A stretch of DNA of 64,000 bases from Lysobacter sp. yr284 (GTDB lineage: Bacteria > Pseudomonadota > Gammaproteobacteria > Xanthomonadales > Xanthomonadaceae), in NCBI RefSeq assembly GCF_900107375.1, contig NZ_FNPT01000002.1:244690-308689 (forward strand), in the 5' to 3' direction. The notes under the pieces were generated by a model. It made no database searches. It worked only from the letters and a program-made list of their open reading frames with translations, and was not told the DNA's origin. Below, one piece after another: positions 947 to 47,190 of the stretch. Each line of letters opens with the position of its first letter. The stretch's first letter is position 1. A program made the position numbers and the translations under genes.

Positions 947-971
947 AATTCGTTCCTCCGTTCGTGCGGCG

Positions 972-1772
972 TCAATCCAGCGCCGCAATCTTGATTTGTT
1001 CGTCTTCCAGCCAGACCTGCACGGGCTTGCCGCGCAGCTCCTTGGGGATTTCTTCGAGCACTTTGTAGCGGCCCGCGATGGCGACCAGTTCGGCGTAGAA
1101 CTCGCGGCAGAAGATGCGCGCTTTCGCGTTGCCCTGCGCGCCGGCCAGGGCGCGGCCGCGCAACGGGCCGTAGATGTGGACCGAGCCGTCGGCGATGACC
1201 TCGGCGCCGGCGCCGACCGTGGTCAGCACGGTCAGGTCGCGGTTGTCGGCGTAGATCTGCTGGCCCGAGCGCACCGGCGCGGATTGGATCATTCCTACCG
1301 ATGAAGCCTGCGCGACGGCCGGCGCGCCGGCCGGCGGGCGCGGCGTGCTGCGGGCCGGTTCGGCGGCCGGCGCGGGCGCCGGCGCTTCGCGTCGCGGCGC
1401 CGCGGCTTCGGCGACGGCGGCGCCGTCGGCGCGCTCGTAGGACGCGCGGAACTTGGCCAGCAGCGGCAGGCCCAGCGCCTGCGACAGTTTCTCGATCTCG
1501 CTGGTGCCGTAGGCCAGCGCCACCGGCAGCACGCCGGCCGCGCGCAGCCCGTCGAGCAGGGCCTGGGCGGAGGCGATGTCGGGCGCATGGCTGAGGCCGC
1601 CGAAGTCGATCACCACCGCGGCGCGGCCGAACATGTTCGGGGCGCGCTGCACGCGGCTGCGCATTTCCTCGACCAGGCGCGGCACGTCGAGGCTGCGGAT
1701 GCGCAGGTTGGCGATGCCGACCTGGCCGATCTTGAGTTCGCCGGCCTGTTCGTAATCCACGGCCACGCTCAC
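972..1772 (-). CDS. minC: Septum site-determining protein MinC
   Basis: 266-residue FtsZ assembly inhibitor. The N-terminal domain (about 1-105, with YEQAGELKIGQVGIANLRI) binds FtsZ. An Ala/Pro-rich linker (about 110-160) follows, and the C-terminal beta-helix domain (about 165-266, with ADGSVHIYGPLRGRALAG) dimerises and binds MinD. The start is GTG at 1772, whose GTGA overlaps the TGA of the upstream acetyltransferase gene, which implies translational coupling. The linker is longer and more Ala/Pro-rich than in E. coli (231 residues). First of the three min genes. Confidence 0.93.
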   Translation of the reverse strand: MSVAVDYEQAGELKIGQVGIANLRIRSLDVPRLVEEMRSRVQRAPNMFGRAAVVIDFGGLSHAPDIASAQALLDGLRAAGVLPVALAYGTSEIEKLSQALGLPLLAKFRASYERADGAAVAEAAAPRREAPAPAPAAEPARSTPRPPAGAPAVAQASSVGMIQSAPVRSGQQIYADNRDLTVLTTVGAGAEVIADGSVHIYGPLRGRALAGAQGNAKARIFCREFYAELVAIAGRYKVLEEIPKELRGKPVQVWLEDEQIKIAALD

Positions 1773-2383
1773 GGGCAGGTCCCGGTGGGACGCGGCGCGT
1801 CGGCGTGGACGGGCGCCACCGGCACCCGCGGGCGGGCCAGCCAGCCGGCGTCGGGCAGGGCGTCGCCGTAGGTCTGGCGCACCCATTCGAAGCTGCACAG
1901 CGGCTTCATCAGCATCGCCGCGCGCACGCCGGCCTCTTCCATCACGTGCTGGCCGACCTCGCGGAAGCCGAAGCTGCCGTGGAACAGCAGGGCCGGGTCG
2001 TTGCCGCCTTCCAGGAACACCTCGCAGGCCAGCTGCGGGTAGCGCAGCTCGGCGTAGCTCTGGGCGTCGGCATAGAAGGCGCGGCCGACGCCGCCGCCGC
2101 GGCGGCGGCTGGCGACGACGATGCGGTCGATGTAGAAGAAGTCCGGATAGCGCTCGTGGAACCAGCGGAAATTGCTGCTGTCGTGGCCGGCGCCGGAACC
2201 CACGCCGATCAGGAAACCGGCCAGGGTGCCGTCGCGTTCGGCGACGCGGAAATATTCGGCGGTGTCGAAGAAGTGACGCAGACGCGCCGCATCCAGCGGC
2301 AGGATCGCAGGCCCGGCGGCGTTGTTGAGGGCAAGGACGGAATCCAGCTCGTGCTCGCGCACGTCGCGGACGACGATCGACAT
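1769..2383 (-). CDS. GNAT-family N-acetyltransferase upstream of minC
   Basis: 204-residue GNAT acetyltransferase that would transfer acetyl from acetyl-CoA to an unknown amine. The fold is recognised from the sequence order: a beta-alpha N-terminus (MSIVVRDVREHELDSVLALN), the motif IDRIVVASRRRGGGVGRAFY with the Arg/Gly-rich pyrophosphate-binding loop near residue 110, and a C-terminal FGFREVG segment. The start at 2383 is supported by GGAG 8 bp upstream. Its stop codon overlaps the minC start by 4 bp, so it is made with the division inhibitor. The substrate cannot be read from the sequence. Confidence 0.85.
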   Translation of the reverse strand: MSIVVRDVREHELDSVLALNNAAGPAILPLDAARLRHFFDTAEYFRVAERDGTLAGFLIGVGSGAGHDSSNFRWFHERYPDFFYIDRIVVASRRRGGGVGRAFYADAQSYAELRYPQLACEVFLEGGNDPALLFHGSFGFREVGQHVMEEAGVRAAMLMKPLCSFEWVRQTYGDALPDAGWLARPRVPVAPVHADAPRPTGTCP

Positions 2384-2527
2384 TCCAGGCTCCAGATAGT
2401 TGCAAGCCGGCGCGAAATCCGTGCCGGCGCCGTCGATTATCGCACGGGGGGCGGTCGCGGGGCGAACGCCCAAGTCCATGACTTTCGGACGGCTCCGCCC
2501 GGGCACCGCTACCGTTAGCATGCGTTC

Positions 2528-3730
2528 ATGCTGGCACGCCTGACCCCCACCCAACTCATGCGCTTCGCCGGGCTGTTCACCTGGGGAGTGGCCGGGTGCT
2601 GGCTGGTGATCATGTGGCTCGAGCCGGAGGCGGCGACTTCGCTGCCCGGCGGCAGCGAGCACACCTTCTTCCTGCTGATCCTGCGCTGGGTGGCCATCCA
2701 CCTGGCCTTCGGCGCGGTCTACTGGTGGGCCAGCCGCGGCCTCGGCCAGCGCCGGCCGGGACCGGCCGACCACGCCCTGCTGCTGGTCCTGACCGCCTGC
2801 GCCATCGGCGTGGGCTACTACTCCAACAGCGGCATCGGCAGCATCCTGCTGATGGTCGTGGCCGGGCTGCTGCCGTGGCTGCTGCCGTTGCGGGTCGGGG
2901 TGGCGTGGCTGGTCCTGAGCAACCTGTCGATCATCCCGGTGTTCGTCATCGCCATCGGCCAGCCGCTGCTGGTGGCGATCGTGCAGTCGGTGGCCTACGC
3001 CGGGTTCTCCAGCCTGGTCTTCGTCAGCTCGCTGGTGGCGATGCAGCAGGCCCAGGCGCGCGAGGACCAGCGCCGGCTCAACGCCGAGCTGCGCGCGACC
3101 CGCGCGCTGCTGGCCGAAAGCGCGCGCATCAACGAGCGCACCCGCATCTCGCGCGAGCTGCACGACCTGCTCGGCCACCACCTCACCGCGCTGAGCCTGA
3201 ACCTGGAAGTGGCCGGGCACCTGTCGGAAGGCCGGGTCAAGGAACACGTGCAGCAGGCGCATACTCTGGCGCGACTGCTGCTCACCGACGTGCGCGAGGC
3301 GGTCAGCCAACTGCGCGAGAACGGCGCCATCGACCTGTCGCTGGCGCTGCGCCCGCTCGCCGAGAACGTGCCCGCCCTGGACATCCGCATGGACATCGAG
3401 ACCCCGCTGACCCTGGACGACCCCGAGCGCGCCCACGTGCTGCTGCGCTGCGCCCAGGAGATCATCACCAACGCGGTCCGCCACGCCGGCGCCCAGCACC
3501 TGTGGATCGACGTGCGCCGCAACGACGGCCACATCGTCATGAGCGCGCGCGACGACGGCCGCGGCGCCGACCACCTGATCGCCGGCAACGGCCTGCGCGG
3601 CATGCGCGAGCGGCTGGTGCAGCACGGCGGCCAACTGCGAATCGAAACCCGGGCCGAGGCCGGCTTCAGCCTGCGCCTGACCCTGCCCGCCACCGCGGCC
3701 GCCATGGGCCGCGAAGGAGCCCTGACATGA
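2528..3730 (+). CDS. Membrane sensor histidine kinase, NarL-partner type
   Basis: 400-residue two-component sensor. Five to six membrane helices occupy about residues 12-170 with little extracytoplasmic sequence, so it may sense the membrane itself, like DesK. A short coiled coil leads to the HisKA_3 dimerisation box RISRELHDLLGHHLTALS with phospho-acceptor His212. The HATPase region has the N box (QEIITNAVRHAGA) and a G box (DDGRG, GNGLRGMRERL). The gene overlaps the next gene by ATGA, so kinase and regulator are co-translated. A TACCGT hexamer at 2510-2515 could be its -10 element. The stimulus is unknown. Confidence 0.9.
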   Translation: MLARLTPTQLMRFAGLFTWGVAGCWLVIMWLEPEAATSLPGGSEHTFFLLILRWVAIHLAFGAVYWWASRGLGQRRPGPADHALLLVLTACAIGVGYYSNSGIGSILLMVVAGLLPWLLPLRVGVAWLVLSNLSIIPVFVIAIGQPLLVAIVQSVAYAGFSSLVFVSSLVAMQQAQAREDQRRLNAELRATRALLAESARINERTRISRELHDLLGHHLTALSLNLEVAGHLSEGRVKEHVQQAHTLARLLLTDVREAVSQLRENGAIDLSLALRPLAENVPALDIRMDIETPLTLDDPERAHVLLRCAQEIITNAVRHAGAQHLWIDVRRNDGHIVMSARDDGRGADHLIAGNGLRGMRERLVQHGGQLRIETRAEAGFSLRLTLPATAAAMGREGALT

Positions 3731-24447: not shown

Positions 24448-24987
24448 ATGGTCGTTACCGGACACTGCATCCTCTCGCACGGCTTCGAAAGCGGCCCCGA
24501 CGCCACCAAGGTCGCGGCCCTGGCCGAAGCGGCGCAACGCCACGGCTGGACCGCCGAGCGCCCCGACTACACCGACCTGGACGCGCGCAGCGACGTCAGC
24601 AAGTACGGCGACGTCTACGCGCGCATCGAGCGCCTGCTCGCGCTGGCGCGCGCCGCGGCCGAGCGCGGGCCGGTGGTGCTGGCCGGATCGAGCCTGGGCG
24701 CCTACATCTCCGGCGCGGTGTCGATGCAGGTGCGTCCGGCCGGCCTGTTCCTGATGGCGCCGCCGATCCACATGGGCCCGGCGCCGGCGCTGCAGGCCGC
24801 GGACGTGCCGCTGAGCCTGCTGCACGGCTGGGACGACGAACTGATTCCCGCCAGCGATGTGATCGCCTGGGCGCAGCCGCGCCGCGCGCGCCTGCTGCTG
24901 GTCGACGACGGCCATCGCCTGTCCAACCACGTCGACGCGAGCGCGGCTGCGTTCGCTCGTCTGCTGCAGAGTCTCTACAACGCATGA
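24448..24987 (+). CDS. Small alpha/beta-hydrolase (YcfP/UPF0227-like)
   Basis: 179 residues with a minimal alpha/beta-hydrolase core: [20 protein letters not shown] supplies the oxyanion [14 protein letters not shown] holds the nucleophile Ser in GSSLG, and [15 protein letters not shown] and DDGHRLSNH provide the acid and catalytic His. No cap domain or signal peptide, so it is a cytosolic esterase-type enzyme of unknown substrate. Its stop overlaps the rlmKL start by ATGA, so the two are coupled. Confidence 0.85.
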
Positions 24988-27332
24988 GCAAGTTCTACGC
25001 AAGCTGCGGCAAAGGCCTGGAATACCTGCTGGCCGACGAACTGGCCGCGCTGGGTTGCCAGCGCGCCACCGCCGCCACCGCCGGCGCCAACGTCGAAGGC
25101 ACGCTCGCCGACGCCCAGCGCGCGGTGCTGTGGTCGCGCCTGGCCAGCCGCGTGCTGTGGCCGATCGCCGAATTCGACTGCCCCGACGAACACGCGCTGT
25201 ACGCCGGCGTGGCCGCGCTGCCGTGGCCCGATCACCTGGAAGCGGTGCACACCCTGGCGGTGGACGCGCACGTCTCCGGCGAGGCCATCACCCACGCGCG
25301 CTACGCCGCGCAGCGGGTCAAGGACGCGGTGGTCGACGTGATGCGCGCGCGCACCGGCGCGCGCCCGGACGTCGATACCGAAGCGCCGGACCTGCGCTTG
25401 AATCTGGTCGTGCGCAAAGGCCGCGCGATCCTGTCGATCGACCTCGGCGGCGGCCCGCTGCACCGGCGCGGCTGGCGCCAGCACCAGGGCGAGGCGCCGC
25501 TGAAGGAGAACCTCGCCGCGGCGGTGCTGCTGCGCGGGCAGTGGCCGAAGGTCTACGCCGCGGGCGGCGGCCTGTTCGACCCGATGTGCGGCAGCGGCAC
25601 CTTGCTGATCGAAGGCGCGCTGATGGCCGCCGACGTCGCGCCGGGTTTGCTGCGCCACGGCCTGCTGCCGCCGACACGCTGGCGTGGTTTCGATTTCGCC
25701 GGCTGGCGCGCGCTGTGCGATCAAGCGCGTACGCGCGAGACCGCCGGCTTGACCGCGCTGCGGCCGGTCTTCGCCGGCAGCGACATCGATCCGCAGGCGA
25801 TCCGCGCGGCGCGCGAGAACGAGGCGATGGCGGGGCTGGCGGGATTGATCCGCTGGGATGTGGCGGCGGTGGAGTCGTTGCAGGCGGCGCCGGAGCCGTT
25901 GCGCGCGGGTGCTGCTGGGCAAGCCGGCGGTGCTGCGCAAGATGCGCCGCAAACCTTCGACCGTCATCCCCGCGAAGGCGGGGATCCGGGGATTCATCGC
26001 GACGATACTGGCGGTTTGGAGCAGGGCGCCGGGGAAGAATCTGGCTTCGCCGGTAGTGCGCCGGCGCAAAGGGATTCGGCTACCCCAGTTGGCCTCGCCG
26101 TCTGCAACCCGCCCTACGACGCCCGCCTCGCCGCCGACCCCGCGCTCTACCGCGCGCTCGGCGAAGCGCTCAAGCGCCTGGTCCCGTCCTGGCGCGCCAG
26201 CCTGCTGTGCGGCGATCCGGCGCTGGCCCAGGCCACCGGCCTGCGCGCGAGCAAGAAATACCAAGTGTTCAACGGCGCGATCGAATGCGCGCTGATCGTC
26301 TGCGACCCGATCGCCCGGGTCGGCCACGCCGAGCAGCGCGCCAAGGAGCAAGACGCCGCGCCGCAGCCGCTCAGCGAAGGCGCGCAGATGGTCGCCAACC
26401 GCCTGCGCAAGAACCTGCGCAAGCTCAAGTCCTGGCGCCAGCGCGAAGGCGTGAGCTGCTTTCGCGCCTACGACGCGGACCTGCCCGAATACGCCGCCGC
26501 CATCGACGTCTACGCCAGCGACGAAGCCGCGCCGCGCACCTGGCTGCATGTGCAGGAATACGCCGCGCCCGCCGACATCCCCGAGGCCGACCAGCGCCGC
26601 CGCCGCAACGAACTGCTGGCCGCCGCGCGCGAAGTGTTCGAGGTGCCGCGCGAACGCATCGCGGTGAAGACCCGCGCGCGCGGCAAGGGCGGCAGCAAGT
26701 ACGGCCAGTTCGACCAGCGCGGCGAGTTCGTGCCGGTGCGCGAGGGCGCCGCGCGCCTGCGCGTGAACCTGTTCGACTATCTCGACACCGGCCTGTTCCT
26801 CGACCACCGGCCGATCCGCCAGAGCATCGCCGAACAGGCGCGCGGCAAGCGCTTCCTCAACCTGTTCGCCTATACCGGCGCGGCCACGGTGCAGGCCGCG
26901 GTCGGCGGCGCGGCGCAGACCGTCACCGTCGACCTGTCGGCGACCTACCTGCAGTGGTGCGCCGACAACCTGCGCGAAAACGGCTTCGGCGGCGCCCAGC
27001 ACCAGCTCATCCACGCCGACGCCATCGCCTGGCTGGAGGCCGAGCGCGGCCGCTTCGACCTGATCTTCTGCGACCCGCCGACCTTCTCCAACTCCGCGCG
27101 CGCCGACGACTTCGACATCCAGCGCGAACACGTGCGGCTGCTGCGCGCGGCGGTGGCGCGGCTGGCCGACAACGGCGTGCTGTACTTCTCCAACAACTTC
27201 CGCCGCTTCCGCCTCGACACCGAGGCGATCGCGCAGTTCGCCCGTTGCCAGGACATCAGCGCCGCGACGATCCCGCCGGATTTCGAGCGCGATGCGCGCA
27301 TCCACCGTTGCTGGCGCCTGGAGCCGCGTTGA
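24984..27332 (+). CDS. rlmKL: Bifunctional 23S rRNA methyltransferase RlmK/RlmL with repeat-derived insertion
   Basis: 782 residues; E. coli RlmKL has 702. The N-terminal RlmL half (m2G2445) has a THUMP domain (about 45-155), a SAM-binding [16 protein letters not shown] and the catalytic [10 protein letters not shown]. The C-terminal RlmK half (m7G2069, about 560-782) has [16 protein letters not shown] and [16 protein letters not shown]. Between about residues 307 and 367, just before NPPY, there is an extra ~60-residue low-complexity segment containing HPREGGDPG, encoded by a family-3 repeat. The frame is kept, so the enzyme may still work. Confidence 0.93.
25961..25998. repeat. Family-3 repeat inside rlmKL
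   Basis: CGTCATCCCCGCGAAGGCGGGGATCCGGGG, the well-known GCGAAGGCGGG dispersed element, lies in frame inside rlmKL. The surrounding insertion probably spans about 25905-26085. Related copies without coding role are at 29.95, 40.81 and 47.08-47.19 kb. Confidence 0.88.
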
Positions 27333-29542: not shown

Positions 29543-29953
29543 CTGTAGGAGCGGCGCAAGCCGCGACCGCGCCATCGCGGCGATTGCGAACGTTTCGTCG
29601 TAGTTGCGCTGTCGCGGTCGCGGCTCGCGCCGCTCCTACAGTCGGATACGCAACTCCACTGCCGTCGTTGACGAGTGACGACAAGCGACAATCAACAGCT
29701 TTCGTCCGCAAGCGGCCGAGTTACTTTCTTTTGGCAGCGCGCCAAAAGAAAGTAACCAAAGAAAAACGCTGGTCTAAGGTCACCAGCCACCAAGTCCAGC
29801 ACCGGGCGCGGGGCTGCGCCATAAGGGACATCCCGTCCCATGGCGCACGCGCGCATCCATGCGCGCGCCCTTCGGGGCTACGGAACGTGGGCCTCGGGCG
29901 CGGTTGCGTCAGGGCGAACGGCAAAGGCAACAGCAACAGCGAAATGGATTCCG
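29543..29953. repeat. Long dispersed repeat, direct copy 2 (with family-1 REP pair)
   Basis: Co-linear with 7419-7827, from the family-1 REP pair (arms at about 29543-29571 and 29611-29640) through GACGAGTGACGACA, the CTTTTGGCAGCGCGCCAAAAG palindrome core and ATGGCGCACGCGCGCATCCA to the GGCAA/CAGCAA triplets. With the inverted copy at 29215 it forms a head-to-head arrangement. A family-3-like pair (ATTCCGGCGTTCGCCGGAA, 29950-29968) adjoins it. 29977-30137 holds nothing recognisable. Confidence 0.85.
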
Positions 29954-30137
29954 GCGTTCGCCGGAACGACGGGGTAGGGCGTTGCGCCGGATGAGGGGTA
30001 GCGCGCTGCGTCGGGGCATTGCGCTGGACGATAGCGGGGTATTGCGCTGGGTAAGAGCGCGGGATCGGGTCGAATGAAGAACAGCCGTCGCGCTCCAACT
30101 TGCAGCACAACCACCCGCGGCACCCGCGCCCGCCCAA

Positions 30138-40318: not shown

Positions 40319-41082
40319 GGGCGGATAGTGGCACATTGTGACGAACTTGGCCCTTCATCCGGATCGCGGCCTCATGCCGGGACCCCAGCGACGCTGAACA
40401 GCCTGAATGCGCGTCCGGCAAGGTGAAGGGTGGGCCCTGCCGGGCCGTTACAGCGGTTTGCGGGTACGGCGGTCGCTGAACGGCGGCGATCGGTTCCTGC
40501 ATGATGGCCGCGTGAAAGCGGGCTGGCAATGCCCGCCCGACGGGCGTGGTGCCGGTGCCGGGCGAAGTGGCGGCGGAAGGGCGGCCGGCACCGTGGCAGT
40601 GGTGGCGGGGTGAGTCGGGGGATGGGGCGATGCGTTCGGTGGGGCGGCCCGGGCCTGATTCCCGGGGCCTGAGAGAAGAGCATCGGGCCTGACGGCCCTC
40701 CCACGGTTTGATGCAGCGCGCGCCGGGGCAGGGTGCCGACGGCTGTGGATTGCTTTAGCTGTAGCCGTGCGGGAACGACGGCGTTGGCTTGACGCCGAAC
40801 GCCTGCACAACCTCATTCCGGCGAAGGCGGGAATCCAGGGGGTCGTCGCGGCACGACCTGCAGGCCGCCCGAGCCTTCGCCGCATCGGTAGGACGCAGCG
40901 GCCGCATCGATCGACCGACCCCAGCCCCGATCCCGCGAACGCGCGCGCCGCCGCACACGCCGCCCGCGCGCATCGCTTGCGCCTGCTGCGCACGCGCCCG
41001 CGCAGGCCATGCCTCGGCCACTCAACCGCCAGCATCGGCAATGCTAGACTCCGCCGCCTCGGACCCAAGGAGCAGTTCAGTC
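40319..41082. other. Long gene-poor gap with repeat fragments
   Basis: 764 bp without a supported gene. It holds a single family-2 arm (about 40680-40706), a family-3 element CCTCATTCCGGCGAAGGCGG at 40811-40842, and GC-rich sequence with no tRNA-like cloverleaf. Near the right end TAGACT at 41045-41050 may be the -10 of the transporter gene. Short open frames across it are Arg/Ala-rich with no ribosome binding site. Confidence 0.55.
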
Positions 41083-47078: not shown

Positions 47079-47190
47079 CGTCGTTTCGGCGAACGCCGGA
47101 ATCCGTTTCGCTTTCGCGCGCCTGCGGCATGGAACGAACTGCCAGGCGGGGCAGGATAAAGATGGGTTCCGGCTTTCGCCGGAATGACGC
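47079..47190. repeat. Family-3 repeat, inverted pair
   Basis: Two diverged family-3 arms, CGTCGTTTCGGCGAACGCCGG... (from 47079) and GGTTCCGGCTTTCGCCGGAATGACG (about 47165-47189), face each other in the 326-bp gap between creC and the hydrolase gene. The remaining sequence up to 47338 holds the GGAGG of the next gene and no terminator. Confidence 0.78.

Follow-up and report, generated by a model that had tools for sequence, protein, structure and literature searches.

REPs of the CGTC-1 family carry a CGTC tag, an 8-bp stem, a 4-nt loop and a CC(A) tail, and they occur mostly as inverted dimers (PMC3733652). According to the available text of that report, CGTC REPs also lie inside genes, often genes for proteins that act on DNA or RNA, with no flanking transposase. 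In recB of Xanthomonas campestris and X. oryzae their positions nearly coincide, which gives a precedent from two species for the case described here (PMC3733652). REPINs consist of two inverted REPs and a spacer that act as a unit, and their excision has been reported (available text of PMC3116915). Rickettsia palindromic elements (RPEs) are another class of palindromic mobile elements that lie in frame inside proteins, in dozens of unrelated Rickettsia genes (available text of PMC10969869).

The repeat found in rlmKL of Lysobacter sp. yr284 shares with the CGTC-1 family, as the available text describes it, the tag, stem, loop, tail, inverted dimers, intragenic copies and lack of a transposase alongside. 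It departs from that report in that one loop of one gene is involved across eight genus codes and a Luteimonas-type group, with a change of orientation and a series of decay; its main text contains none of the words 'lysobacter', 'rlm' or 'methyltransferase' (PMC3733652). Like the elements of PMC3116915, its family forms units of two inverted REPs and a spacer. Those REPINs are linked to RAYT genes in the available text, whereas here no REP lies within ~1.5 kb of a Y1 transposase at the eight loci checked, of 38 matches listed, so that a RAYT link is not seen at these loci. The RPEs differ in their spread over many genes; here few genes were found, one of them across a family. Intragenic REPs are already known; no report of their recurrence in rlmKL was among the papers listed by searches of the open-licence literature.

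The window, the whole 64,000-nt stretch of Lysobacter sp. yr284 DNA that was analysed, contains rlmKL with an intact reading frame (Table 1). Against the RlmK/RlmL equivalog model, which has a cut-off of 466, the 782-aa product reaches 896 bits; it shows the THUMP, RlmL and RlmK domains of the RlmKL family, and its catalytic motifs are intact. The preliminary description had called the frame and the catalytic motifs intact, and both NPPY and DPMCGSGT are indeed kept. In DPMCGSGT, which we take to be the SAM-site motif of the RlmL half, D199, P200, M201, C202, G203 and G205 are invariant in a 61-row alignment. The closest structural match of an AlphaFold2 model of the product (61 sequences, mean pLDDT 83.7, pTM 0.58) is E. 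coli YcbY. Residues 1-299 and 368-779 align with E. coli RlmLK (3v8v, 702 aa), and between the two blocks 68 residues are unaligned as against 7 in the E. coli protein. RlmKL with this insert most likely works as usual.

Table 1. Features of the rlmKL locus and related repeats in the window
Feature	Position	Strand	Basis or remark
rlmKL (ycbY) gene	24984..27332	+	bifunctional 23S rRNA m2G2445 / m7G2069 methyltransferase, 782 aa
DPMCGSGT, residues 199-206	25578..25601	+	RlmL half
Extra loop, ~residues 303-366, mostly predicted disordered	25890..26081	+	alignment and model
CGTC-1-type REP, left REPIN arm	25962..25988	+	sequence and genome copies
CGTC tag of the REP	25962-25965		
Stem of the REP	25966-25973 / 25978-25985		
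Loop of the REP	25974-25977		GAAG
Tail of the REP	25986-25988		CCG
REPIN spacer remnant, orientation B (AGGGCTTCATCGCGA...)	25988..26007	+	spacer comparison
Catalytic NPPY, residues 375-378, intact	26106..26117	+	sequence and alignment
Other REP-like copy, 3 mismatches	29946..29970	-	window scan
Other REP-like copy, 2 mismatches	40812..40836	+	window scan
Two variant REP-like copies facing each other as an inverted pair (4 mismatches in one, 3 in the other)	47080..47188	.	window scan

The extra loop ahead of NPPY spans ~64 residues (~192 bp), in agreement with the earlier estimate, upheld by the alignment to E. coli RlmLK, of some 60 extra residues in the RlmL half just before this motif. Its description as a loop also holds: residues 313-365, between a helix at 304-308 and a strand at 370-374, have pLDDT below 50 and are predicted to be disordered. 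In the model the loop joins the start of that strand, which precedes NPPY; the strand start is presumably at the end opposite the catalytic face in the RlmL methyltransferase fold. The proposed position next to the active site is thus right in sequence, where the loop adjoins NPPY, but in this fold the loop would enter at the end away from the catalytic face. An E. coli strain from which rlmKL is missing, along with other modification genes, remains viable, and the enzyme's L domain aids 50S assembly even when it is methylation-dead (available text of PMC11194073), which makes tolerance of the loop plausible.

The repeat inside the loop belongs to a large family. The 25-mer GTCATCCCCGCGAAGGCGGGGATCC at 25963-25987 has 14 exact copies in the genome, the rlmKL copy included, and 81 copies at three or fewer mismatches (41 on one strand, 40 on the other) against none in the reversed genome, and these counts identify it as a real repeat family. 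A dispersed, mobile-type repeat in frame in rlmKL, as first proposed from the window, is thereby corroborated. The window by itself is uninformative: the 17-mer quoted originally (25971-25987) occurs there once exactly and once with two mismatches, where 1.57 occurrences are expected by chance at three or fewer mismatches, and such a count is weak evidence.

The rlmKL copy has the architecture of a CGTC-1 REP, with CGTC at one end, the stem-loop ATCCCCGC-GAAG-GCGGGGAT (25966-25985; an 8-bp stem starting AT and a 4-nt loop), many genome copies and a variant tail, CCG in place of the CCA of most copies in its own genome and most carriers in the genus. In codon phase 1 it reads R-H-P-R-E-G-G-D-P. 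Fourteen inverted REP pairs at 57-58 bp in the same genome mark the family as REPIN-forming; the full element measures ~83 bp, mostly as 25+33+25 bp, and its spacer is 33 nt long in 20 of 20 reads of this genome and 38 of 44 reads of G006. The window copy alone is no such pair, having lost its right arm, which would be expected near 26021 and is unrecognisable there; it is a relic of a REPIN. Arm (~26 bp) and spacer remnant (~20 bp) together make up about a quarter of the loop, and the remainder is non-repeat and fast-changing. Of the suggestion that the repeat had been inserted as the extra loop, the exact arm inside the loop survives, but not the equation of the whole loop with repeat. Elsewhere in the window, an inverted repeat pair at 29429-29504/29671-29746 (76 nt, 79%) is nested inside another at 29237-29368/29806-29937 (132 nt, 83%); the two pairs perhaps represent another dispersed repeat family.

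Within the genus, an insert with REP arms is present in 12 of 20 genomes (G000-G019, own genome included), while the other eight have a short loop. An insertion shared by all close relatives with a conserved non-repeat sequence, which would have spoken against the preliminary description, is accordingly not what is seen; the repeat is the conserved part and the non-repeat flanks are the most variable. Both arms are kept in four carriers (G001, G003, G006 and G016) and the left arm only in eight. The REPIN stands in orientation B in G000, G002, G004, G008, G014, G017 and G018 and in orientation A in G001, G003 and G005; G006 and G016 have an A-like spacer with a looser match. Opposite orientations imply at least two events, or an inversion, inside one genus. 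Supply of REPs as the sole cause of presence was considered and rejected: four of the eight non-carriers (G007, G010, G011 and G015) hold 29-89 exact REP copies, where carriers hold 21-291, and the remaining four (G009, G012, G013 and G019) are nearly free of REPs, each genome having 1-2 exact copies of the two main REP subtypes.

Spacer sequences do not follow the relationships of the genes. G003 and G016 are 6.4% apart in the gene and differ at 13 of 33 spacer sites, while G006 and G016 differ at 7 of 33; the G005 spacer differs from that of G003 at 1 of 15 sites and from that of its sister G006 at 5 of 15. Off-tree spacers among the A carriers fit replacement of a resident copy, and interspecies recombination of the gene could also produce them. 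Elsewhere in the genome of the window there is a spacer that differs from the rlmKL spacer of G003 at 2 of 33 nt. For the rlmKL spacers of G006 and G016, no close counterpart (at least 11 and at least 12 of 33 mismatches, respectively), and hence no donor, is seen among 44 G006 and 20 own-genome spacers, which weighs against replacement from such copies. In L. enzymogenes ATCC 29487 (L111 = L004) the same loop contains, on the upstream side of its REP, a short tandem repeat coding for AQDGAA, an indication that the loop also grows by tandem duplication.

Across Lysobacteraceae, REP arms occur in this loop in 21 of 97 rows (95 distinct genes). A second set of 139 genomes evenly drawn over the family gave 135 matches, 129 of them outside the genus, from which 60 loops were taken, a non-random choice of mostly one per genus code plus extras from codes that looked near Lysobacter. 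Eight of these 60 carry arms and 40 had not been seen in the first set; the two new carriers are L283, with both arms exact, and L317, an apparently collapsed REPIN. In total, 23 of 135 distinct rlmKL genes have REP arms in the loop, a figure that is not an unbiased prevalence. The other carriers outside the genus are Lysobacter arvi (L074), L076, Lysobacter sp. Root494 (L079), L. defluvii (L084), the Luteimonas-type L087 and L091, L088, L. selenitireducens (L089, 818 aa) and L092; the loop is filled in eight genus codes and in the separate Luteimonas-type group.

Carrier loops have six or fewer mismatches on at least one arm, and reversed loops at least eight. An upstream control gave five mismatches once (L080) and six once (L125), so lone five-mismatch arms are weak. 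L084 (5 and 4 mismatches) was called on both arms and the peptide, L092 on its right arm (1) and L317 (6 and 4) on both arms. Presence calls near the threshold are soft: L086 (= L302), with a possible degenerate arm at seven mismatches, was scored as a non-carrier, and the non-carriers L273 and L282 reach seven mismatches on the other strand and in another phase. Several loops have further peculiarities. In L091 and L317 the REPINs have apparently collapsed to a single palindrome with fused left and right arms. L089, the longest rlmKL among carriers, has a REPIN whose enlarged spacer contains NSPWARA, and L078 has a similar stretch, SPWAKA, with no recognisable arms.

Sister species can differ in presence, as do L084 and L024, whose loops differ by 27 codons (81 bp), approximately one REPIN, in favour of L084, and as do L074 and the L080-L135 pair. 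These differences, together with the two orientations in one genus, suggest that the site has probably been filled more than once across Lysobacteraceae.

In both loop sets, every recognised left arm starts in codon phase 1 and every right arm in phase 2. Of 70 complete REPIN reads in both orientations from the window's genome and G006, 69 are stop-free in phase 1; the number drops to 30 in phase 0 and to zero in phase 2. The peptide read in phase 1 is hydrophilic, with a mean hydropathy of -1.47 as against +0.37 for phase 0. Were stops alone to matter and ten events to be independent, the probability that all ten fall in phase 1 would be ~0.03, so stop codons would account for most of the phase bias, and the hydrophilic peptide may account for the rest.

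These observations are probably best explained by a disordered loop that tolerates REPINs entering repeatedly, the copies subsequently decaying or being replaced. Tolerance would follow from the near-complete read-through in the phase used, the hydrophilic peptide and the predicted disorder. A REPIN of two inverted CGTC-1 REPs would have entered the flexible loop between strands 289-293 and 370-374 of the RlmL fold, where either orientation would yield a hydrophilic peptide, R-H-S/P-R-E-G-G-N/D-P ... D-S-R-L-R-G-N-D. After entry, a copy could degenerate, shrink to a single arm or disappear, or a REPIN from elsewhere in the genome could take its place, putatively through re-insertion or gene conversion; in the yr284 genome one exact arm would have been left amid much non-repeat loop sequence. 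A bolder version, in which the loop ahead of NPPY acts as a revolving door where REPINs are swapped in either orientation and selection in a shared frame makes a recurring peptide, independently domesticated in many genera, is a tentative possibility that we hold at rather modest odds.

Alternatively, one ancient insertion early in Lysobacteraceae could have been inherited vertically in one phase, with many losses, and kept REP-like by gene conversion. Every recognised carrier does share the same loop and phase, and the REP-poor G009, G012, G013 and G019 lack the insert, in line with a need for donor copies to maintain it. A tree from which the loop was excluded, though, requires 10 changes to account for presence, and 23 losses under a single gain; this tree comprises 93 of the 97 rows, has weak inner forks and omits L025, L092 (a carrier), L101 and L147, for which no anchor was found. 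Opposite REPIN orientations within one genus, and close sisters of carriers whose short loops have no recognisable REP, also speak against a single insertion, which we regard as unlikely. Parsimony alone does not separate gains from losses, and one gain followed by 23 losses could still have produced the distribution.

Another account, no more probable than the ancient insertion, is convergent domestication, by which the peptide SREGGNP...DSRLRGND would be useful in RlmL, for example as an extra RNA contact, and kept by selection. Where left arms depart from the consensus of the REP, 12 changes are synonymous and 3 non-synonymous (p 9e-6 against a uniform expectation of 24% synonymous), whereas the other 80 REPs of the own genome give 7:19 (Fisher p 0.0013). 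These counts are small and uncorrected for the tree; the truncated left arm of L092 and the left side of L076 are excluded, and a change common to the sisters L007 and L009 is entered once. The right arm of L084 likewise has four synonymous and no non-synonymous changes. Against this, right arms, taken from 11 carriers only, are at 4:3, no excess over the 11:10 of the own genome, and four of the 12 synonymous left-arm changes are one recurrent T>C, without which the ratio becomes 8:3 (p 0.001 and 0.013). Most examined family members do without the peptide, sister loops are short, and G004 and G018 drop residues of it. At the sequence level, the left-arm excess hints that the peptide is kept without proving it; the domestication first suggested for the repeat is hinted at there, and the right arms taken together give no signal.

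The variation of the arm is itself mixed. It is identical in six species with up to ~17% gene divergence, species that were chosen for this identity after the data had been seen; of 722 stretches of 25 bp in the gene with like phase, only 3 are as conserved. Mean divergence across the full set of 12 genus carriers is of similar size in the arm (10.7%) and in the gene (13.7%), and the sisters G017 and G004 are 5.8% apart in the gene and 20% in the arm. A mixture of this kind would be expected if the arm were refreshed in some lineages while it decayed in others.

A role at the RNA or DNA level, with a hairpin in the rlmKL mRNA tuning translation or mRNA stability, is very improbable. As such a role would have it, the complete REPIN in Lysobacter sp. 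Root690 has a folding energy of -57.6 kcal/mol (z -7.8), but the region in the window folds barely better than shuffles (z -1.38) and eight of the 12 genus carriers have lost one arm. An accidental likeness between the repeat and a G+C-rich loop of low complexity, for which only the chance-level count in the window would speak, has practically no standing, being refuted for the window copy by the exact 25-bp match with a reversed-genome control of 0 and opposed elsewhere by the separation of carrier from reversed loops.

In-frame placement appears to be rare for this family. By a heuristic codon-position G+C rule, the rlmKL copy is the only one of the 81 in its own genome with at least 60 coding-like codons on both sides. 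Four had been flagged as coding, and the three others were not accepted as genes, being antisense or having odd codon-position G+C. In G006 a scan drew on a list of 100 of the 241 REP places, which past ~0.7 Mb held forward-strand places only; it reached 2.66 Mb of the 6.06-Mb genome and covered 62 clusters with 150 REPs. In-frame REPs were found there in rlmKL, which had been included deliberately, and in one other gene. That gene encodes a PF00144 serine hydrolase (L203, complement of 967-3021) and has the REPs in its C-terminal half. A Y1 transposase domain occurs in 19 of the 20 genus genomes. The domain search detected none in G006, a genome in which the two main REP subtypes together number 270 exact copies; with the absence of REPs near the eight Y1 loci checked, this counts against the favoured account.

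Within this one gene the site occurs empty or with a copy of a selfish element that is full, half-decayed, collapsed or apparently swapped, which makes a natural series. The series allows tests of how non-coding mobile DNA becomes protein, and of how such REPs keep moving or convert. It also raises the question of why rlmKL is the gene concerned, given that just one of the 81 genome copies was judged, by the heuristic rule, to lie well inside a coding frame.
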